Shown piece by piece: positions 17,995 through 32,980 of a stretch of 32,980 nt of DNA. The translations under genes and the position numbers were made by a program. Under the pieces are notes generated by a model. It did not search any database and was not told the DNA's origin. It saw only the letters and a list, made by a program, of their open reading frames with translations. Numbering within the stretch: the stretch's first letter is position 1; every line of letters begins with the position of its first letter. The stretch lies in the IMG/VR virus record IMGVR_UViG_3300030329_001881, positions 1 through 32,980 of that record; one strand, 5' to 3'. The stretch comes from a virus.

Positions 17995-18201
17995 ATGGCT
18001 AGACAGACTGTGCAAGATGTTTCTGAATCTTTAAAAGAGCATCTTGCTAGTTGTAATGAGCAATCAAAAACTATCTTTAGTACCCTAGAAGAACTAAAAG
18101 AGGACTTAAGAACATTGCATAATAAGGTAGATATGTCTATTTATGCGACTACAGGCTTTCTAGCTACTACTTTAGTTGCTATACTTCTTGTATCGATCTA
18201 G
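17995..18201 (+). CDS. Coiled coil plus C-terminal TM, XhlA-like
   Basis: A 68-residue protein: residues 1-45 form a charged coiled coil (VSESLKEHLASC, IFSTLEELKEDLRTLHNKVD) and residues 49-68 a C-terminal transmembrane helix (YATTGFLATTLVAILLVSI). This is the layout of XhlA-type hemolysin/holin accessory proteins that anchor to the inner membrane. It starts one base after the previous stop. The similarity is of architecture only. Confidence 0.55.
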   Translation: MARQTVQDVSESLKEHLASCNEQSKTIFSTLEELKEDLRTLHNKVDMSIYATTGFLATTLVAILLVSI

Positions 18202-18252
18202 GGCTGGTATCTCCTATATTTTACCCCTTTCAATTTATTCATTTACCAGCCC
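18201..18252 (+). other. Inverted repeat before the accessory operon
   Basis: Perfect 9-bp arms GGGCTGGTA (18201-18209) and TACCAGCCC (18244-18252), separated by a 34-base pyrimidine-rich loop. It starts at the stop codon of the XhlA-like gene and ends just before a TATAAT box. The loop is long and no T-run follows, so it is not a standard terminator. It may be a protein-binding site, RNA structure or recombination scar. Confidence 0.5.
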
Positions 18253-18272: not shown

Positions 18273-18623
18273 ATGGAAGATGTAGTCACCATTATTCAAC
18301 AACTAGGATTTCCGATAGCAGCAGCTATAGGTCTTGGTATTTTCATATATAAACTGATTATGAAGATCATCAATGGTATGGAAACTAAACTAGATACTGT
18401 TGATGATAAGGTAAATACTTCATTAGATGCTATGGAAGATCGTCTTAGTACCAAACTAAATGCTCAACATGGTATATTAGTAGCATTAATAGATAGAATA
18501 AGAAGTCTTGATAATGAGATTATTAGACAAGATACTCTTATTAAAACTATATTAGGACTACCACAACTGATAGATACTAATAAGATAGCAAAGGCAGATA
18601 GAGATGATCAAAGAAAAGATTAG
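18273..18623 (+). CDS. Membrane-anchored coiled-coil protein
   Basis: A 116-residue protein with an N-terminal transmembrane helix (residues 10-31, FPIAAAIGLGIFIYKLIMKI) and a long coiled coil (MEDRLSTKLNAQ, ILVALIDRIRSLDNEIIRQ). The topology mirrors the preceding 68-residue protein, with the membrane helix at the opposite end. It might be a holin accessory or i-spanin-like protein. Its 3' end overlaps the csgF start by 20 bases, tying the curli genes to the phage operon. Confidence 0.6.
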   Translation: MEDVVTIIQQLGFPIAAAIGLGIFIYKLIMKIINGMETKLDTVDDKVNTSLDAMEDRLSTKLNAQHGILVALIDRIRSLDNEIIRQDTLIKTILGLPQLIDTNKIAKADRDDQRKD

Positions 18624-19098
18624 TAAAACTTTTAATTATTACAAAAATAAAAAGGGCTGTGCTTTTATGTTGTTGCCTTTATTAGCTATTCCTTTAATGG
18701 CTGATGAAATTAAGTTTCAATTTAAAAACCCTTCTTTTAGTGGTGTTGGTACATCAGCACACTATTTAACCATAGAGAACCAAGAGTACACTAGAAAAGA
18801 AGCCTTAGAAGCCGAAATACAAGCTCTGAAAGATGAATTAGAACGAGATGCAGAAAATACTACATTAGCCAGATTTATTCGTAATTTTGAATCTAGGATA
18901 TATGCCCAGCTATCAAGACAATTAGTTGAACAATTATTCGGTGAAAATCCAGCATCAGAAGGCTCTTTTACTTTATTTGATAATATAATTACATGGACTT
19001 CCGATGGTACTTATATAACACTAACGATATACAATGAAGCAGATGGCACAACAACTGAAATTACTATTCCTATTGGCGATTTTGGGTTCGCTGGTTAG
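18604..19098 (+). CDS. csgF: Curli assembly factor CsgF homologue
   Basis: A 164-residue secreted protein. A basic N-terminus and hydrophobic stretch (residues 18-33, ending LMA) form a signal peptide, with cleavage likely before DEIKFQFKN. FQFKNPSF at 38-45 matches the conserved CsgF N-terminus that plugs into the CsgG pore. After an inserted glutamate-rich helix, residues 86-160 fit the CsgF C-terminal region (RFIRNFESRIYAQL, ITLTIYNEADGTTTEITIP). In curli systems CsgF sits at the cell surface and couples secretion to nucleation. An internal ATG at 18667 is a possible shorter start. The gene overlaps both neighbours. Confidence 0.88.
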   Translation: MIKEKISKTFNYYKNKKGCAFMLLPLLAIPLMADEIKFQFKNPSFSGVGTSAHYLTIENQEYTRKEALEAEIQALKDELERDAENTTLARFIRNFESRIYAQLSRQLVEQLFGENPASEGSFTLFDNIITWTSDGTYITLTIYNEADGTTTEITIPIGDFGFAG

Positions 19099-19885
19099 TT
19101 GTGCAAGTCATGTTAGAAACATTGCCCCTTGTATAGATAACCCAGATTACGATTACAAAGATTTAGTTACTATTATTGGTAAAGCCCAATGTTTTTCTAA
19201 AAGTGCTTTTGTTAATGAGCCTATTACCGATGAAATTAAAAACATAAAAACACCAAATGTCAGACCTGTAGTAGCTGTATATAAATTTCAAGATTTAACA
19301 GGACAAAGAAAATCTGTAGATAACTACGCTAATTTTTCTACTGCTTTAACCCAAGCCCCTGAAACTTACTTAATCAGAGCTTTAAAACAATCAGGGTTCT
19401 TTAGAATTGTGGAAAGAGTGGGGATAGATCACCTAACAAGAGAACGACAAATCATTAGATCAACCAGAGAAAAGTTTGATGATGATACTGAACAATTACC
19501 CTTGTTATTCGCTGGATTGCTATTTGAAGGTGGTGTAGTGGACTACAACACAAATCTATTGACAGGTGGTGTGGGGGCAAGGTATTTGGGTATAGGCAAC
19601 TCAAAACAGTACAGAGAGGACACAGTAGTAGTTTCTATTAGAGTGGTATCAGTTTCTACAGGAGAGATACTATTAGAGAACTTAACAACCAAAACCATAC
19701 TATCAGTAGGTCTGTCTAACGATCTATTTAGGTATATTGCTGATGGAACTAAGCTAGTTGAGTTTGAAACAGGCAATGCAATGAATGAATCTAAGTCAAT
19801 AGCATTGCAATCAGCCATTGAAATTGGTATCGTTAATATCATTGAACAAGGCATAGAAAAAGGCTTTTGGTCATATAGAGAATAA
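19034..19885 (+). CDS. csgG: Curli secretion channel lipoprotein CsgG homologue
   Basis: A 283-residue outer-membrane lipoprotein. The signal peptide ends in the lipobox LVSC (Cys23), followed by A-S, which favours outer-membrane sorting. Core CsgG features are present: VVAVYKFQDLTGQ, the constriction-loop NFSTA, LIRALKQSGFFRIVER, GGVGARYLGIG, VVSVSTGEIL, TKTILSV and the final helix to GFWSYRE. It ends about 20 residues short of the E. coli tail. CsgG forms a nonameric pore that exports unfolded curlin subunits. The signal peptide is encoded in another frame inside the csgF 3' end (65-base overlap). Confidence 0.96.
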   Translation: MKQMAQQLKLLFLLAILGSLVSCASHVRNIAPCIDNPDYDYKDLVTIIGKAQCFSKSAFVNEPITDEIKNIKTPNVRPVVAVYKFQDLTGQRKSVDNYANFSTALTQAPETYLIRALKQSGFFRIVERVGIDHLTRERQIIRSTREKFDDDTEQLPLLFAGLLFEGGVVDYNTNLLTGGVGARYLGIGNSKQYREDTVVVSIRVVSVSTGEILLENLTTKTILSVGLSNDLFRYIADGTKLVEFETGNAMNESKSIALQSAIEIGIVNIIEQGIEKGFWSYRE

Positions 19886-19890
19886 GAATT

Positions 19891-20610
19891 ATGAGAATAT
19901 TATTACTGTTTTTATCTAGCTTTTTATTAGCAGATAACGAAATATTTATAGATCAGAGTGGTGCTAATGCCACCATTAAACTAGAACAGCTTGGTAGCAC
20001 TAATCTAATTGGTGGTACATCTTCTGTTGCAGGTTCTATGACAGCCTTCAGTTTAGATGGTACAGATATGACCTTAACCATTAATCAAATAGGTTCTAGC
20101 AATATTTTTAGATCAGATGGTTTTAACTCAGATTATGTAGAAGCACTTTTTGATTTTGATGGTGATTCTAACCAAATGGATATTCTAATGAACTCAGGTG
20201 GGGCTTATTCAGCCGATTATGCTAATTACAATGTTCAAGTAACAGGTGGTAGTAATACCTTTGATATTGAGATAGCTGAAAACTCAAATGCAGATTACCT
20301 AGATTTAGATTGGATTATTGATGGTGATAGTAATGAGTTTGAATTTGATATTGATTATGAAAATGCCACTAATTACATAGATTTATTTGGTGATAGCAAC
20401 ACTATTACTTTTGCAGGTAGTGGTTATTCAGGCACAACTGCTAGTGATTCAGGTTATTTATATATGGATATAACAGGAAGCTCTAATACATTTGATATTA
20501 CACAAGCATCAACTCTAGCTAGAGATTGGTTAAAAATTACAGGAAATGGATCGAATAGTAGTTGGTGTATTGTTCAAAATGATGATGGCTCTACAGCCAC
20601 TTCATGCTGA
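19891..20610 (+). CDS. Secreted curlin-repeat-like protein
   Basis: A 239-residue secreted protein with a short signal peptide (residues 1-14, cleavage before DNEIF). The early repeats fit the curlin pattern Q-x-G-x-x-N: QSGAN (22-26, one residue short), QLGSTN (33-38), QIGSSN (66-71). Later units change to an acidic form: DGDSN (90), GGSN (119), DGDSN (144), FGDSN (166), TGSSN (195), GNGSN (218), each followed by alternating hydrophobic residues. It should form a stacked beta structure. The end carries two cysteines (226, 239). Placement after CsgF/CsgG makes it the likely exported substrate. Whether it forms amyloid is unproven. Confidence 0.8.
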   Translation: MRILLLFLSSFLLADNEIFIDQSGANATIKLEQLGSTNLIGGTSSVAGSMTAFSLDGTDMTLTINQIGSSNIFRSDGFNSDYVEALFDFDGDSNQMDILMNSGGAYSADYANYNVQVTGGSNTFDIEIAENSNADYLDLDWIIDGDSNEFEFDIDYENATNYIDLFGDSNTITFAGSGYSGTTASDSGYLYMDITGSSNTFDITQASTLARDWLKITGNGSNSSWCIVQNDDGSTATSC

Positions 20611-21631
20611 TACGATAGGAGATATAACAGAGCTTAAGGGCTATGGTCAAATACTCAGAGATGAACCTTATGCAGCCACTTTAGATTTCAACATTAATTC
20701 TTACGATGATGTTCGCACAAGAGCTGGTCGTATTGGTATAACCTTTCTTGATAATTCTACAGTTAAACTAACAGAACATTCTAAGCTAATCATAGATGAA
20801 TACATTTATGATCCTAACCCTGATAAATCTAAGATGGCACTACAATTTGCTAGTGGTACTATCAGATTTACAAGTGGGGCATTTAATAAAAAGAATGTCG
20901 AACTATCCACCCCTACAGCCAATATAGCTGTGCTAGGAACAGATTTTACTTGCACAGTAGATGAAACAGGCAGAAGTCTAATAATCCTGTTGCCTGACGA
21001 ATATGGCGATGCTTCTGGCGAGATTATAGTTTCTACTGCTACAGGACAAGTCACCTTAAATAAACCATACCAAGCCACTACTACTAGCGTATATGAAGCT
21101 AATCCTTCTAAGCCTGTAACCTTAGATATAACACTAGATATGATTGACAATATGTTGATTGTCTCGCCACCCCAAGAAGAAATCAACAATGAACAAACAC
21201 AAGCAAGTCAAAAAGCCGATTATTTAGATTTTAACGATCTTGATGTGGATTTATTGAATGAAGATTTTTTAGATACCGAAGAAGATTTAGATTTTACTGA
21301 ATTAGATGTTGATTACCTTGATGTAAATTTCTTAGAAGATTTATTAGATGTTTTAGATGATTTAGATGAACAGGAAGAAGAAGATCAGTTGGTCGCTGTC
21401 GATGGCACTAACATAGTTGGTACAAGAATAGGACAAGATGGAGAAACCCAAATCACAACCATTCTGCAAGGAGATAAAATTAAATTAATTAGATCAGTTA
21501 ATCAAAATGCACAGGTTGTAGTTAATAGCGATGGTTCTTACACCCTAATCTTTATACAAGATGGGGTATCAAATACAGTAAAAATTAATGGTGGAACTTC
21601 ATCTAGTATTACAATAATACAAACACCATGA
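20546..21631 (+). CDS. Secreted FecR-domain protein
   Basis: A 361-residue protein with a putative signal peptide (residues 1-21, ending PLHA) whose codons lie within the curlin gene's 3' end in another frame (65-base overlap). Residues about 50-150 form a FecR domain: RAGRIGITFLDNSTVKL, LQFASGTIRFTSG, VELSTPTANIAVLGTDF. Residues 225-275 form an extraordinary Asp/Leu-rich tract with YLD, DLD and FLD steps. A beta-rich end follows. In many bacteria FecR-domain proteins lie next to CHASE2 cyclases, as here, suggesting a periplasmic or surface partner of the sensor. The exact start is uncertain. Confidence 0.83.
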   Translation: MDRIVVGVLFKMMMALQPLHADTIGDITELKGYGQILRDEPYAATLDFNINSYDDVRTRAGRIGITFLDNSTVKLTEHSKLIIDEYIYDPNPDKSKMALQFASGTIRFTSGAFNKKNVELSTPTANIAVLGTDFTCTVDETGRSLIILLPDEYGDASGEIIVSTATGQVTLNKPYQATTTSVYEANPSKPVTLDITLDMIDNMLIVSPPQEEINNEQTQASQKADYLDFNDLDVDLLNEDFLDTEEDLDFTELDVDYLDVNFLEDLLDVLDDLDEQEEEDQLVAVDGTNIVGTRIGQDGETQITTILQGDKIKLIRSVNQNAQVVVNSDGSYTLIFIQDGVSNTVKINGGTSSSITIIQTP

Positions 21632-23382
21632 TTAGATTAGGTTTATTAGTTATTTTCATTCTTAGCTTACCTTTAGCTTTTCAGGTTACACCTTTAGAGA
21701 TTCTAAAGTTAAAAACCTTTGATGCTTTAGTAGAGAAACATAAACCATCTGAATATTTTAGTATTCTAAATATAACTGATACTGATGTTAGGGCAGAGGG
21801 TGGTTATCCTTTTCCTCGTCAAAGATTGGCTGAAATAAATAACACGCTTTTACAAAATGGGGCTATTGGTGTAGGCTGGGTAGTATCTTTTATAGACATA
21901 GATCGGTTTGGTGGTGATGACATTTTTTCCAATTCTATTTCACAAGCAGCAGTTGTCGCCACCTTCTCTACTGACAATGGCATCTATCCCCAACCAACAG
22001 GCGTAGTCATATTGGGTGAGGAAGCACAGGGTATTCCTATTGCTGGTTATTATCCCAACATTCCTAAAATTGCTAATGTGGCTTATGAAGGTATGGTGTC
22101 TGCCCCTGTTGATGTCGATGGTCTAGTTAGACGATTACCCTTACTATTCAAAACACCTGATGGCTGGACACCTAGTTTTGGCACACAGGTCTTAAAGCTG
22201 TTAGCTGGTGCTGATACTTTTATTATTAAAACCAATGCAGCAGGTATTGAAGAAATTAAGGTTAGAGGGCTACCTGAAACTAAAGTAGATCAATATGGGC
22301 GTAAATGGATTGCATGGGTAGATACACCTGAAATATCACTTGCCGAAATGGAAAATGGTGTTGGTTTAGAAAAGATACAAGGCAAGTTTGTATTTGTTGG
22401 TGTAACAGCTAAAGGTGTAATGCCACAATTATCTACAAGTAGTGGTGAATTATTAGAGCCACACAAAATCCAAGCTGCCCTAGCTGAATCTATCCTTATT
22501 GATACGCCAAGCATACCTTATTGGCATTTGATGGCAGAATTAGCAATTATGGTAATTACAGGCTTTCTTATTTGGCTTGTAAGCTCATATCTCGGTATTT
22601 TTTGGTCTATCGTATTGGGTGGTGGCATATTTTTCTCTACAGGCTTATTTGGGCTTTACATGATAAATAGGGGCATTTTAATTGATTTTAGCTACACCTT
22701 AATAGCACAATTCGTTACTGCTAGTGTCGCTTACTACCTAAACTTTAGAAAACAATACAAATTACGCCAACAGATTAAGAAACAGTTTGAACATTATCTC
22801 GATCCACGACAAGTTAAACAATTACAAGATAATCCTGAACTGTTAAAACTAGGTGGAGAGAAAAGATACTGTACTTATTTGTTTACTGATGTAAGAGGAT
22901 TTACTGCTTTATCAGAAGTGTTACCACCTAAAGAAGTCACCAAGATTATGAATCAGGTCTTAACCATTCAAGCTGATTGTGTGAAATCTTATGATGGTAT
23001 GGTAGATAAGTATATTGGTGATGCAATGATGGCGATATTTAATGCACCTTTAGATTTAAAAGATCACGAAACAAAAGCTATTAAGTGTGCTATAGAAATA
23101 CAACAAAAAGTTAAAGCAGCTAAGTTGGGTGTTGAAATAGGTGTAGGGATTAATTCAGGAGAAGCCATAATTGGCAACATGGGTAGCAATGATAGATTTG
23201 ATTATAGTGCTATTGGTGATCCTGTGAATACAGCAGCTAGATTAGAAAGTGCAACTAAGGAAGTAGGAGTAGATATTTTGATTGGTCACAATACACAACA
23301 AAAATGCGATTTTAAGTTACAATCATTAAAGCCGATAAAAGTTAAAGGCAAACAAAATGAACTAAGGATTTATACAGTATGA
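21628..23382 (+). CDS. CHASE2-domain class III adenylate cyclase
   Basis: A 584-residue inner-membrane sensor enzyme expected to make cAMP from ATP. TM1 is at 4-20, a periplasmic CHASE2 sensor at about 25-295, then three TM helices (300-372) and a linker with FEHYLDP. The cyclase domain has both metal aspartates (D421 in FTDVRGF, D465 in KYIGDAM), the adenine-selecting K461 and D531, and the transition-state N534 and R538 (PVNTAARLE). All are intact, so an active adenylate cyclase is predicted. The start overlaps the FecR stop (ATGA) and the end overlaps the endolysin start. Confidence 0.93.
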   Translation: MIRLGLLVIFILSLPLAFQVTPLEILKLKTFDALVEKHKPSEYFSILNITDTDVRAEGGYPFPRQRLAEINNTLLQNGAIGVGWVVSFIDIDRFGGDDIFSNSISQAAVVATFSTDNGIYPQPTGVVILGEEAQGIPIAGYYPNIPKIANVAYEGMVSAPVDVDGLVRRLPLLFKTPDGWTPSFGTQVLKLLAGADTFIIKTNAAGIEEIKVRGLPETKVDQYGRKWIAWVDTPEISLAEMENGVGLEKIQGKFVFVGVTAKGVMPQLSTSSGELLEPHKIQAALAESILIDTPSIPYWHLMAELAIMVITGFLIWLVSSYLGIFWSIVLGGGIFFSTGLFGLYMINRGILIDFSYTLIAQFVTASVAYYLNFRKQYKLRQQIKKQFEHYLDPRQVKQLQDNPELLKLGGEKRYCTYLFTDVRGFTALSEVLPPKEVTKIMNQVLTIQADCVKSYDGMVDKYIGDAMMAIFNAPLDLKDHETKAIKCAIEIQQKVKAAKLGVEIGVGINSGEAIIGNMGSNDRFDYSAIGDPVNTAARLESATKEVGVDILIGHNTQQKCDFKLQSLKPIKVKGKQNELRIYTV

Positions 23383-32913: not shown

Positions 32914-32980
32914 ATGACACTTATAGTTCATACAGCAAAAAGGTACTTTCTGGGCGTAGTTTTAAGGGTTATACGAAAAG
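32914..32980 (+). CDS. Possible short ORF crossing the circular joint
   Basis: An ATG at 32914, with AGGT upstream, opens a frame beginning MTLIVHTAKRYFLGVVLRVI. If the ends are joined at the 14-bp repeat, the frame continues to a TAG at bases 68-70, giving 40 residues and ending ten bases before the terminase small-subunit ATG. It may be a tiny gene or only an open stretch in the packaging-site region. Low confidence. Confidence 0.3.
   Translation, partial: MTLIVHTAKRYFLGVVLRVIRK
32967..32980. repeat. Terminal direct repeat, right copy
   Basis: Exact copy of bases 1-14. The neighbouring non-coding stretch (from about 32902 through the joint to base 80) lies immediately before the terminase small subunit, where cos sites sit in lambda-like phages. 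Two AAGCGC direct repeats occur at about 12-17 and 34-39 and would be worth testing as part of a packaging site. No cos site can be proven from the sequence alone. Confidence 0.65.

Follow-up and report, generated by a model that had tools for sequence, protein, structure and literature searches.

The 32,980-base virus record IMGVR_UViG_3300030329_001881 (IMG/VR; analyzed at full length and called the window here) raises an obvious question: why does a phage of this size carry genes for curli export next to genes for a FecR-domain protein and a CHASE2 adenylate cyclase? We found that these genes belong to a cassette of six at 18273-23382, which occupies 5.1 kb or 15.5% of the genome. All six are intact and lie on one strand in the order 116-residue gene, CsgF, CsgG, curlin-like, FecR-domain and CHASE2-cyclase. 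A first-pass annotation, made from the sequence alone, had named the last five, and open reading frames together with Pfam matches bear out both their identities and their positions. CsgF, CsgG, FecR, CHASE2 and Guanylate_cyc scored above the curated Pfam cut-offs, and the curlin repeat scored below. The sixth gene (18273-18623), which always precedes csgF, had been missed, and including it corrects the 14% of the genome first assigned to the block. On balance, and with little more than even confidence, we favor the reading that this mobile cassette goes back to a curli operon of an alphaproteobacterium, has been exchanged between marine tailed phages, and exports a curlin-like protein coupled to a FecR/CHASE2 cyclic AMP (cAMP) signal.

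The cassette sits in the tail-lysis region on the same strand as its neighbors, and its borders are set by relatives that lack it. The last backbone gene on the left encodes a 68-residue protein with a coiled coil and one transmembrane helix (17995-18201, + strand); the first on the right encodes a phage lysozyme (23379-23807, +; PF00959, 2.2e-12) and overlaps the 3' end of the cyclase gene by 4 nucleotides. The block had been described as overlapping phage genes on both sides. This is true on the right, but the left neighbor is itself part of the cassette and not of the backbone. Among relatives with a 75-94% identical terminase, the near-complete records G001 and G002 bear the block. In a group with 59% terminase identity, G007 carries it between a tail gene and membrane-protein/lysozyme (lysis) genes, and G003-G006 (31-34 kb) do not have it. 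These four genomes contain a homologue of the 68-residue gene, followed by lysozyme either directly or past one to three small genes.

All six genes are kept in every contig that spans the block (43/43, including the window; 15/15 for the siphophage type), in agreement with the earlier view of a single phage-borne module. Pairwise ratios of nonsynonymous to synonymous substitution rates (dN/dS) were at most 0.28 for each gene in every pair tested, and all six are under purifying selection. Two overlaps in the window, csgF/csgG (19034-19098) and curlin/fecR (20546-20610), are 65 nucleotides each, and in both the end of the upstream gene doubles as the signal-peptide code of the downstream gene. 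They are kept in siphophage and podophage copies, mostly at 59-71 bases, and are small or absent in the T4-like phages HTVC008M and Melnitz. In siphophage G001, an MT-A70 methyltransferase gene lies between fecR and the cyclase gene (L165:6520-7056), and contig L007 has a gap matching this insertion in size.

The exporter is represented by csgF (18604-19098, +; PF10614, 3.8e-18), whose product has a signal peptide and the mature N-terminus FQFKNPSFSG, and by csgG (19034-19885, +; PF03783, 4.2e-48), which encodes an outer-membrane lipoprotein pore with an LVSC lipobox ending at Cys23. In E. coli, a conserved N-terminal segment of CsgF binds the pore, and an FxFxNPSFSG motif is conserved at the N-terminus in our alignment of phage and Hyphomonas CsgF. 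Residues 68-281 of the window CsgG align to solved E. coli CsgG structures (1.6e-43), and Cys23 is nearly invariant across phage copies. A single-sequence search of the PDB with CsgF gave no useful match.

Downstream lies the gene for a secreted, curlin-like β-solenoid (19891-20610, +) with two canonical QxGxxN repeats and five further GxSN repeats, spaced 22-33 residues apart. Despite its sub-threshold Pfam match, the curlin identity first proposed for this protein holds because several lines of evidence converge on it. The Q/G/N positions are invariant among 24 phage homologues, and the protein's profile matches a long-repeat Hyphomonas curlin at 2e-21. An AlphaFold2 model forms a β-solenoid (predicted local distance difference test score, pLDDT, 75; predicted template modeling score, pTM, 0.71), and its top named viral fold matches are annotated "Curlin associated" (best E 1.3e-4). 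A fold search of the PDB with this model returned non-significant matches only, most of them β-solenoids.

The secreted FecR-domain protein (20546-21631, +; PF04773, 1.4e-12; phrog_37870, 1.5e-68) combines a signal-like N-terminus, an acidic Leu/Asp-rich linker and a β-rich C-terminus; its AlphaFold2 model was poor (pLDDT 48) and was not used. Neither an anti-sigma domain nor a membrane anchor was found by Pfam or by a hydropathy threshold, and we ruled out an iron-citrate-type regulator because such a protein would have an anti-sigma domain and a single-pass inner-membrane helix. The last gene (21628-23382, +) encodes a CHASE2 sensor joined to a class III adenylate cyclase (PF05226, 4.3e-26; PF00211, 7.8e-20), and hydropathy indicates an N-terminal transmembrane helix, an extracytoplasmic CHASE2 domain, three transmembrane helices and a cytoplasmic cyclase whose closest solved relatives are 6fht and 2w01. 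Class III cyclases use two metal-binding aspartates, a purine-binding lysine and a transition-state asparagine/arginine pair. Of 72 phage copies, 71-72 keep D421, K461, D465, N534 and R538, in line with the complete active site noted in the first-pass annotation. The same annotation had held that FecR and CHASE2-cyclase genes are often neighbors in bacteria. Indeed, a FecR gene lies no more than 3 kb away from 34 of the 112 CHASE2 genes in 115 alphaproteobacterial genomes, compared to 0.65 expected, which supports a working pair.

The overlooked first gene (18273-18623, +) encodes a 116-residue protein with one N-terminal membrane helix followed by a coiled coil. It lies upstream of csgF in every block-spanning contig and is absent from block-less relatives. 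One or two homologues precede csgF in HTVC008M and Melnitz, where the genes at this position encode 92-115 residues and belong to the same profile family; full-length homologues span 81-122 residues. Its dN/dS is 0.00-0.13. Although the gene at this position was called a histidine kinase ("HK") in 2022 (PMC9599517), we found neither kinase domains (HisKA/HATPase) nor any other significant Pfam domain in the protein, and we ruled out a kinase in favor of a small membrane protein. Its topology is holin-like, and it has weak holin-like matches in PHROG.

Immediately left of this gene, the cassette border contains an inverted repeat, GGGCTGGTA(N34)TACCAGCCC (18201-18252, +), with a predicted fold of -15.9 kcal/mol (z -4.15). 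Its stem is unchanged except for G-U pairs in 18 module-bearing siphophage contigs, with a variable loop and no compensatory changes, and the pattern was not found in the block-less G003-G006. It is possibly a leader hairpin or attenuator. Podophages of the HTVC023P type have a leader of about 65-97 nucleotides directly before the first cassette gene, folding into a three-way junction whose outer stem covaries, with a conserved UUGACU...GGAACAU (for example L036:9088-9166, L048:5254-5338 and L021:9078-9142, plus 11 more variants). Across these 14 distinct variants, 10 pairs changed on both sides, in related sequences and thus through few independent events. No Rfam match was found for this leader, which we consider a candidate new cis-regulatory RNA, and either it or the window-type stem could act as a control element for the cassette. 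A known riboswitch upstream of the cassette was rejected, with no convincing Rfam match at gathering or permissive thresholds, and sigma-70 promoters and terminators showed no excess over shuffled sequence.

The phage that carries this cassette in the window has a G+C content of 35.4% and is probably a complete genome with cohesive-end-like termini. GGTTATACGAAAAG occurs at both ends (1-14 and 32967-32980, 14 common bases), and the contigs of many relatives start 506-514 bases from the terminase gene; together, these point to cohesive-type ends and a whole genome. Its backbone is that of a λ-like siphophage, with a GpA-type terminase (phrog_15, 3e-261), a portal, a protease-capsid fusion, and tape measure, distal tail and J-type tail proteins. 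The isolates closest in terminase sequence (46-50% identity) are Roseobacter phages of 29-33 kb, among them CRP-406 and CRP-811; annotation and profile searches of two Roseobacter-phage isolates found no curli genes.

We then asked where the cassette came from. The same module is present in podophages of the HTVC023P type, whose portal is about 50% identical to that of HTVC023P, and in HTVC008M and Melnitz. A fourth carrier lineage, L184 (G018), has the block with an unrelated terminase (phrog_2) and portal (phrog_12). Its cyclase is far more diverged (34%) and an extra DUF5658-like gene lies between fecR and the cyclase gene, possibly through mosaic exchange inside the block. Within a tree of CsgF, CsgG, FecR and cyclase, the podophage copies enclose a single clade of eight copies from window-type siphophages (97/97), and G007 falls with a podophage. 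The approximately unbiased test rejected a common gain of every siphophage copy (p-AU 0.0013; G007 is a long branch, which calls for some caution), implying at least two gains by siphophages. Podophages sharing hosts with them would be the simplest source.

On the bacterial side, CsgG of Hyphomonas sp. TMED17 joins all of the phage copies in the CsgG tree, and this group is separated from the remaining bacterial CsgG (99/98). The 705-kb TMED17 contig (L201) contains csgF, csgG, curlin, fecR and cyclase in the phage order as a chromosomal operon, and the flanks, read by eye, encode ordinary bacterial neighbors, a TonB receptor and a FAH-type hydrolase. This arrangement is known from one metagenome-assembled genome (MAG), the single example found; five further alphaproteobacterial curli loci contain csgF/csgG (three of them also curlins) with FecR and cyclase absent. 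The Hyphomonas operon suggests that FecR and cyclase sat in a bacterial unit before phage capture, and from this one MAG they appear to belong to the ancestral operon. Short contigs with phage-type copies of the block also occur in bacterial MAGs binned as Pelagibacter, Flavobacteriaceae, Rhodobacteraceae and Pirellulales (L200, L202, L203, L215, L219, L225 and L267). All except L219 include the phage-only small gene, and they are probably misbinned phage contigs. A 1.5-kb "Salmonella phage" record with a CsgG gene (OR851715.1) is likely host DNA.

What would such a unit do? From the genes observed and their order, together with borders, selection, kinship, export signals and catalytic residues, we propose that the infected cell builds an outer-membrane CsgG-CsgF pore at a late stage, as homology to curli export suggests. 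The late timing is suggested by the position in the tail-lysis region, the shared strand and the overlap with lysozyme. The curlin-like protein would be exported through this pore and may assemble into an amyloid-like surface layer. The periplasmic FecR protein and the membrane-bound cyclase would act as a pair: on engagement of CHASE2 by FecR or by the state of the envelope, the cyclase would raise cAMP and tie export to host regulation. The 116-residue protein may be a phage-added accessory. Sec or lipoprotein signals are present on the exported cassette proteins, and every contig that retains the pore also retains the cargo (43/43), with its invariant Q/G/N positions, as it should if the curlin is what the pore exports. 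A functional curli-type exporter is predicted with more certainty than any benefit. The likeliest benefit is a changed surface of the infected cell, acting as a superinfection barrier and/or making cells and virions stick together; superinfection block, holding cells together and release, the roles first suggested for the block, match published hypotheses.

Several observations weigh against this proposal. The block encodes no CsgE, CsgC, CsgD or separate CsgB; every gene in it has been assigned and none is left over as a CsgE gate or adaptor, a part that the host may supply. The curlin repeat scores 15.1 bits (0.023) against a Pfam threshold of 20.7, and the protein, which is short and acidic, has no more than two canonical repeats. 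Its model matched no solved amyloid significantly (CsgA, E 0.6). Neither a tRNA nor another firm marker was found to assign a host to the window. Finally, Melnitz-infected cells did not clump in the published cultures (PMC9004378), which argues against gross aggregation and makes a thin anti-superinfection coat at least as likely.

These points leave room for other explanations. The lysis-pore model proposed for Melnitz (PMC9004378) would make CsgG-CsgF a repurposed outer-membrane pore for egress, with the 116-residue protein as a holin-like component and the remaining genes gating or timing it. The surroundings fit: the cassette abuts lysozyme in the window and lies beside lysis genes in G007, the block of HTVC023P-type podophages follows a homologue of the window's 157-residue protein with two transmembrane helices, and the 116-residue protein has the topology and weak PHROG matches of a holin. 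Yet block-less relatives have homologous lysozyme and small membrane-protein genes, which makes the block unnecessary for lysis, the annotated neighbors in HTVC008M are not lysis genes, and the model leaves unexplained why a dedicated curlin cargo is so strictly kept and conserved. We consider this model unlikely, though the lysis-gene neighborhood in siphophages and podophages keeps a role in egress plausible. The constant, conserved cargo also argues against the other pore-only model, an uptake channel (PMC7029224; also raised in PMC9599517) in which an ungated CsgG admits nutrients or cofactors and FecR/cyclase senses nutrient state. The missing CsgE gate is in its favor, but CsgF and curlin would be superfluous and the FecR protein does not have the anti-sigma architecture of iron-citrate FecR, and we regard it as improbable.

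A third possibility keeps the cargo but not the amyloid: the protein may be a soluble or anchored β-solenoid decoy or adhesin, exported through CsgG to mask the phage receptor and exclude superinfection. The two canonical repeats, the acidic sequence, the fairly confident single-chain β-solenoid and a C-terminal CxxQ...C conserved in siphophage and podophage copies are all consistent with this, but homology to the long-repeat Hyphomonas curlin and to "curlin associated" phage proteins is not, and we judge it somewhat less probable than a lysis device. A misassembled locus, whether a chimera or bacterial DNA wrongly placed in a phage contig, has the cellular origin of the genes as its sole point in favor; it is ruled out for practical purposes by the 43 intact contigs, by identical phage-gene junctions in many of them, by filled and empty sites, and by a phage phylogeny in which the copies are nested.

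Purifying selection on every part, together with repeated gain, indicates that the unit pays its way. A 33-kb siphophage devoting 15.5% of its genome to it shows that a marine phage need not be large to carry the curli module, and offers a compact system for phage-made amyloid, with block-less relatives as natural plus/minus comparisons for measuring the benefit. Judging by the five-gene operon in a bacterium, FecR and cyclase are probably long-standing components of the system and not phage additions. A bolder version, which we offer tentatively and think doubtful as a whole, is that a complete five-gene operon was captured, gained a phage membrane gene and RNA-controlled leaders, and now circulates among at least four unrelated tailed-phage lineages as an amyloid and cAMP island, providing marine bacteria, once infected, with a regulated extracellular amyloid coat for which they have no genes of their own.

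How does the window compare with systems already described? The full five-gene set, which the first-pass annotation had not known from phages, was published in 2022: HK-CsgF-CsgG-CsgA/B-FecR-(CsgA/B)-AC was described in pelagiphage podo- and myophages, along with transfer between the two and expression of marine phage versions in metatranscriptomes (PMC9599517). The module itself, including FecR and cyclase, is already known in phages. The window has the genes of the pelagiphage module in the same order (PMC9599517; PMC7029224), and its 116-residue gene, which has no kinase domain, agrees with the published "HK" in position and size class. Among the podophages compared, proteins of the HTVC023P-type module are about 57-86% identical to the window's, and the window's proteins group with other phage copies in both trees. 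The carrier differs, being a GpA-terminase siphophage with one curlin, as does the cassette share (15.5% of the genome versus 7.8 ± 1.6% reported for podophages). The Methylophilales phage Melnitz and the Pelagibacter phage HTVC008M share the full set of six gene families and its order; however, they are T4-like, an additional curlin separates FecR from cyclase, the small membrane gene occurs twice, and their CsgG is only 39-42% identical to the window's. The Hyphomonas operon shares the order of its five genes and the grouping of its CsgG with all phage CsgG, but is without the 116-residue gene, and its curlin has 504 residues and many repeats. With E. coli curli (csgBAC/csgDEFG), the window has in common CsgG, CsgF and a curlin-type cargo, and it adds FecR and a CHASE2 cyclase in a block without CsgE, CsgC, CsgD or a separate CsgB. 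We found no report of siphophage carriage in the open-licence literature. We conclude that a third carrier type, a λ-like siphophage, is new here, as are better-defined borders, the correction to the first gene and the matching five-gene operon in a bacterium.

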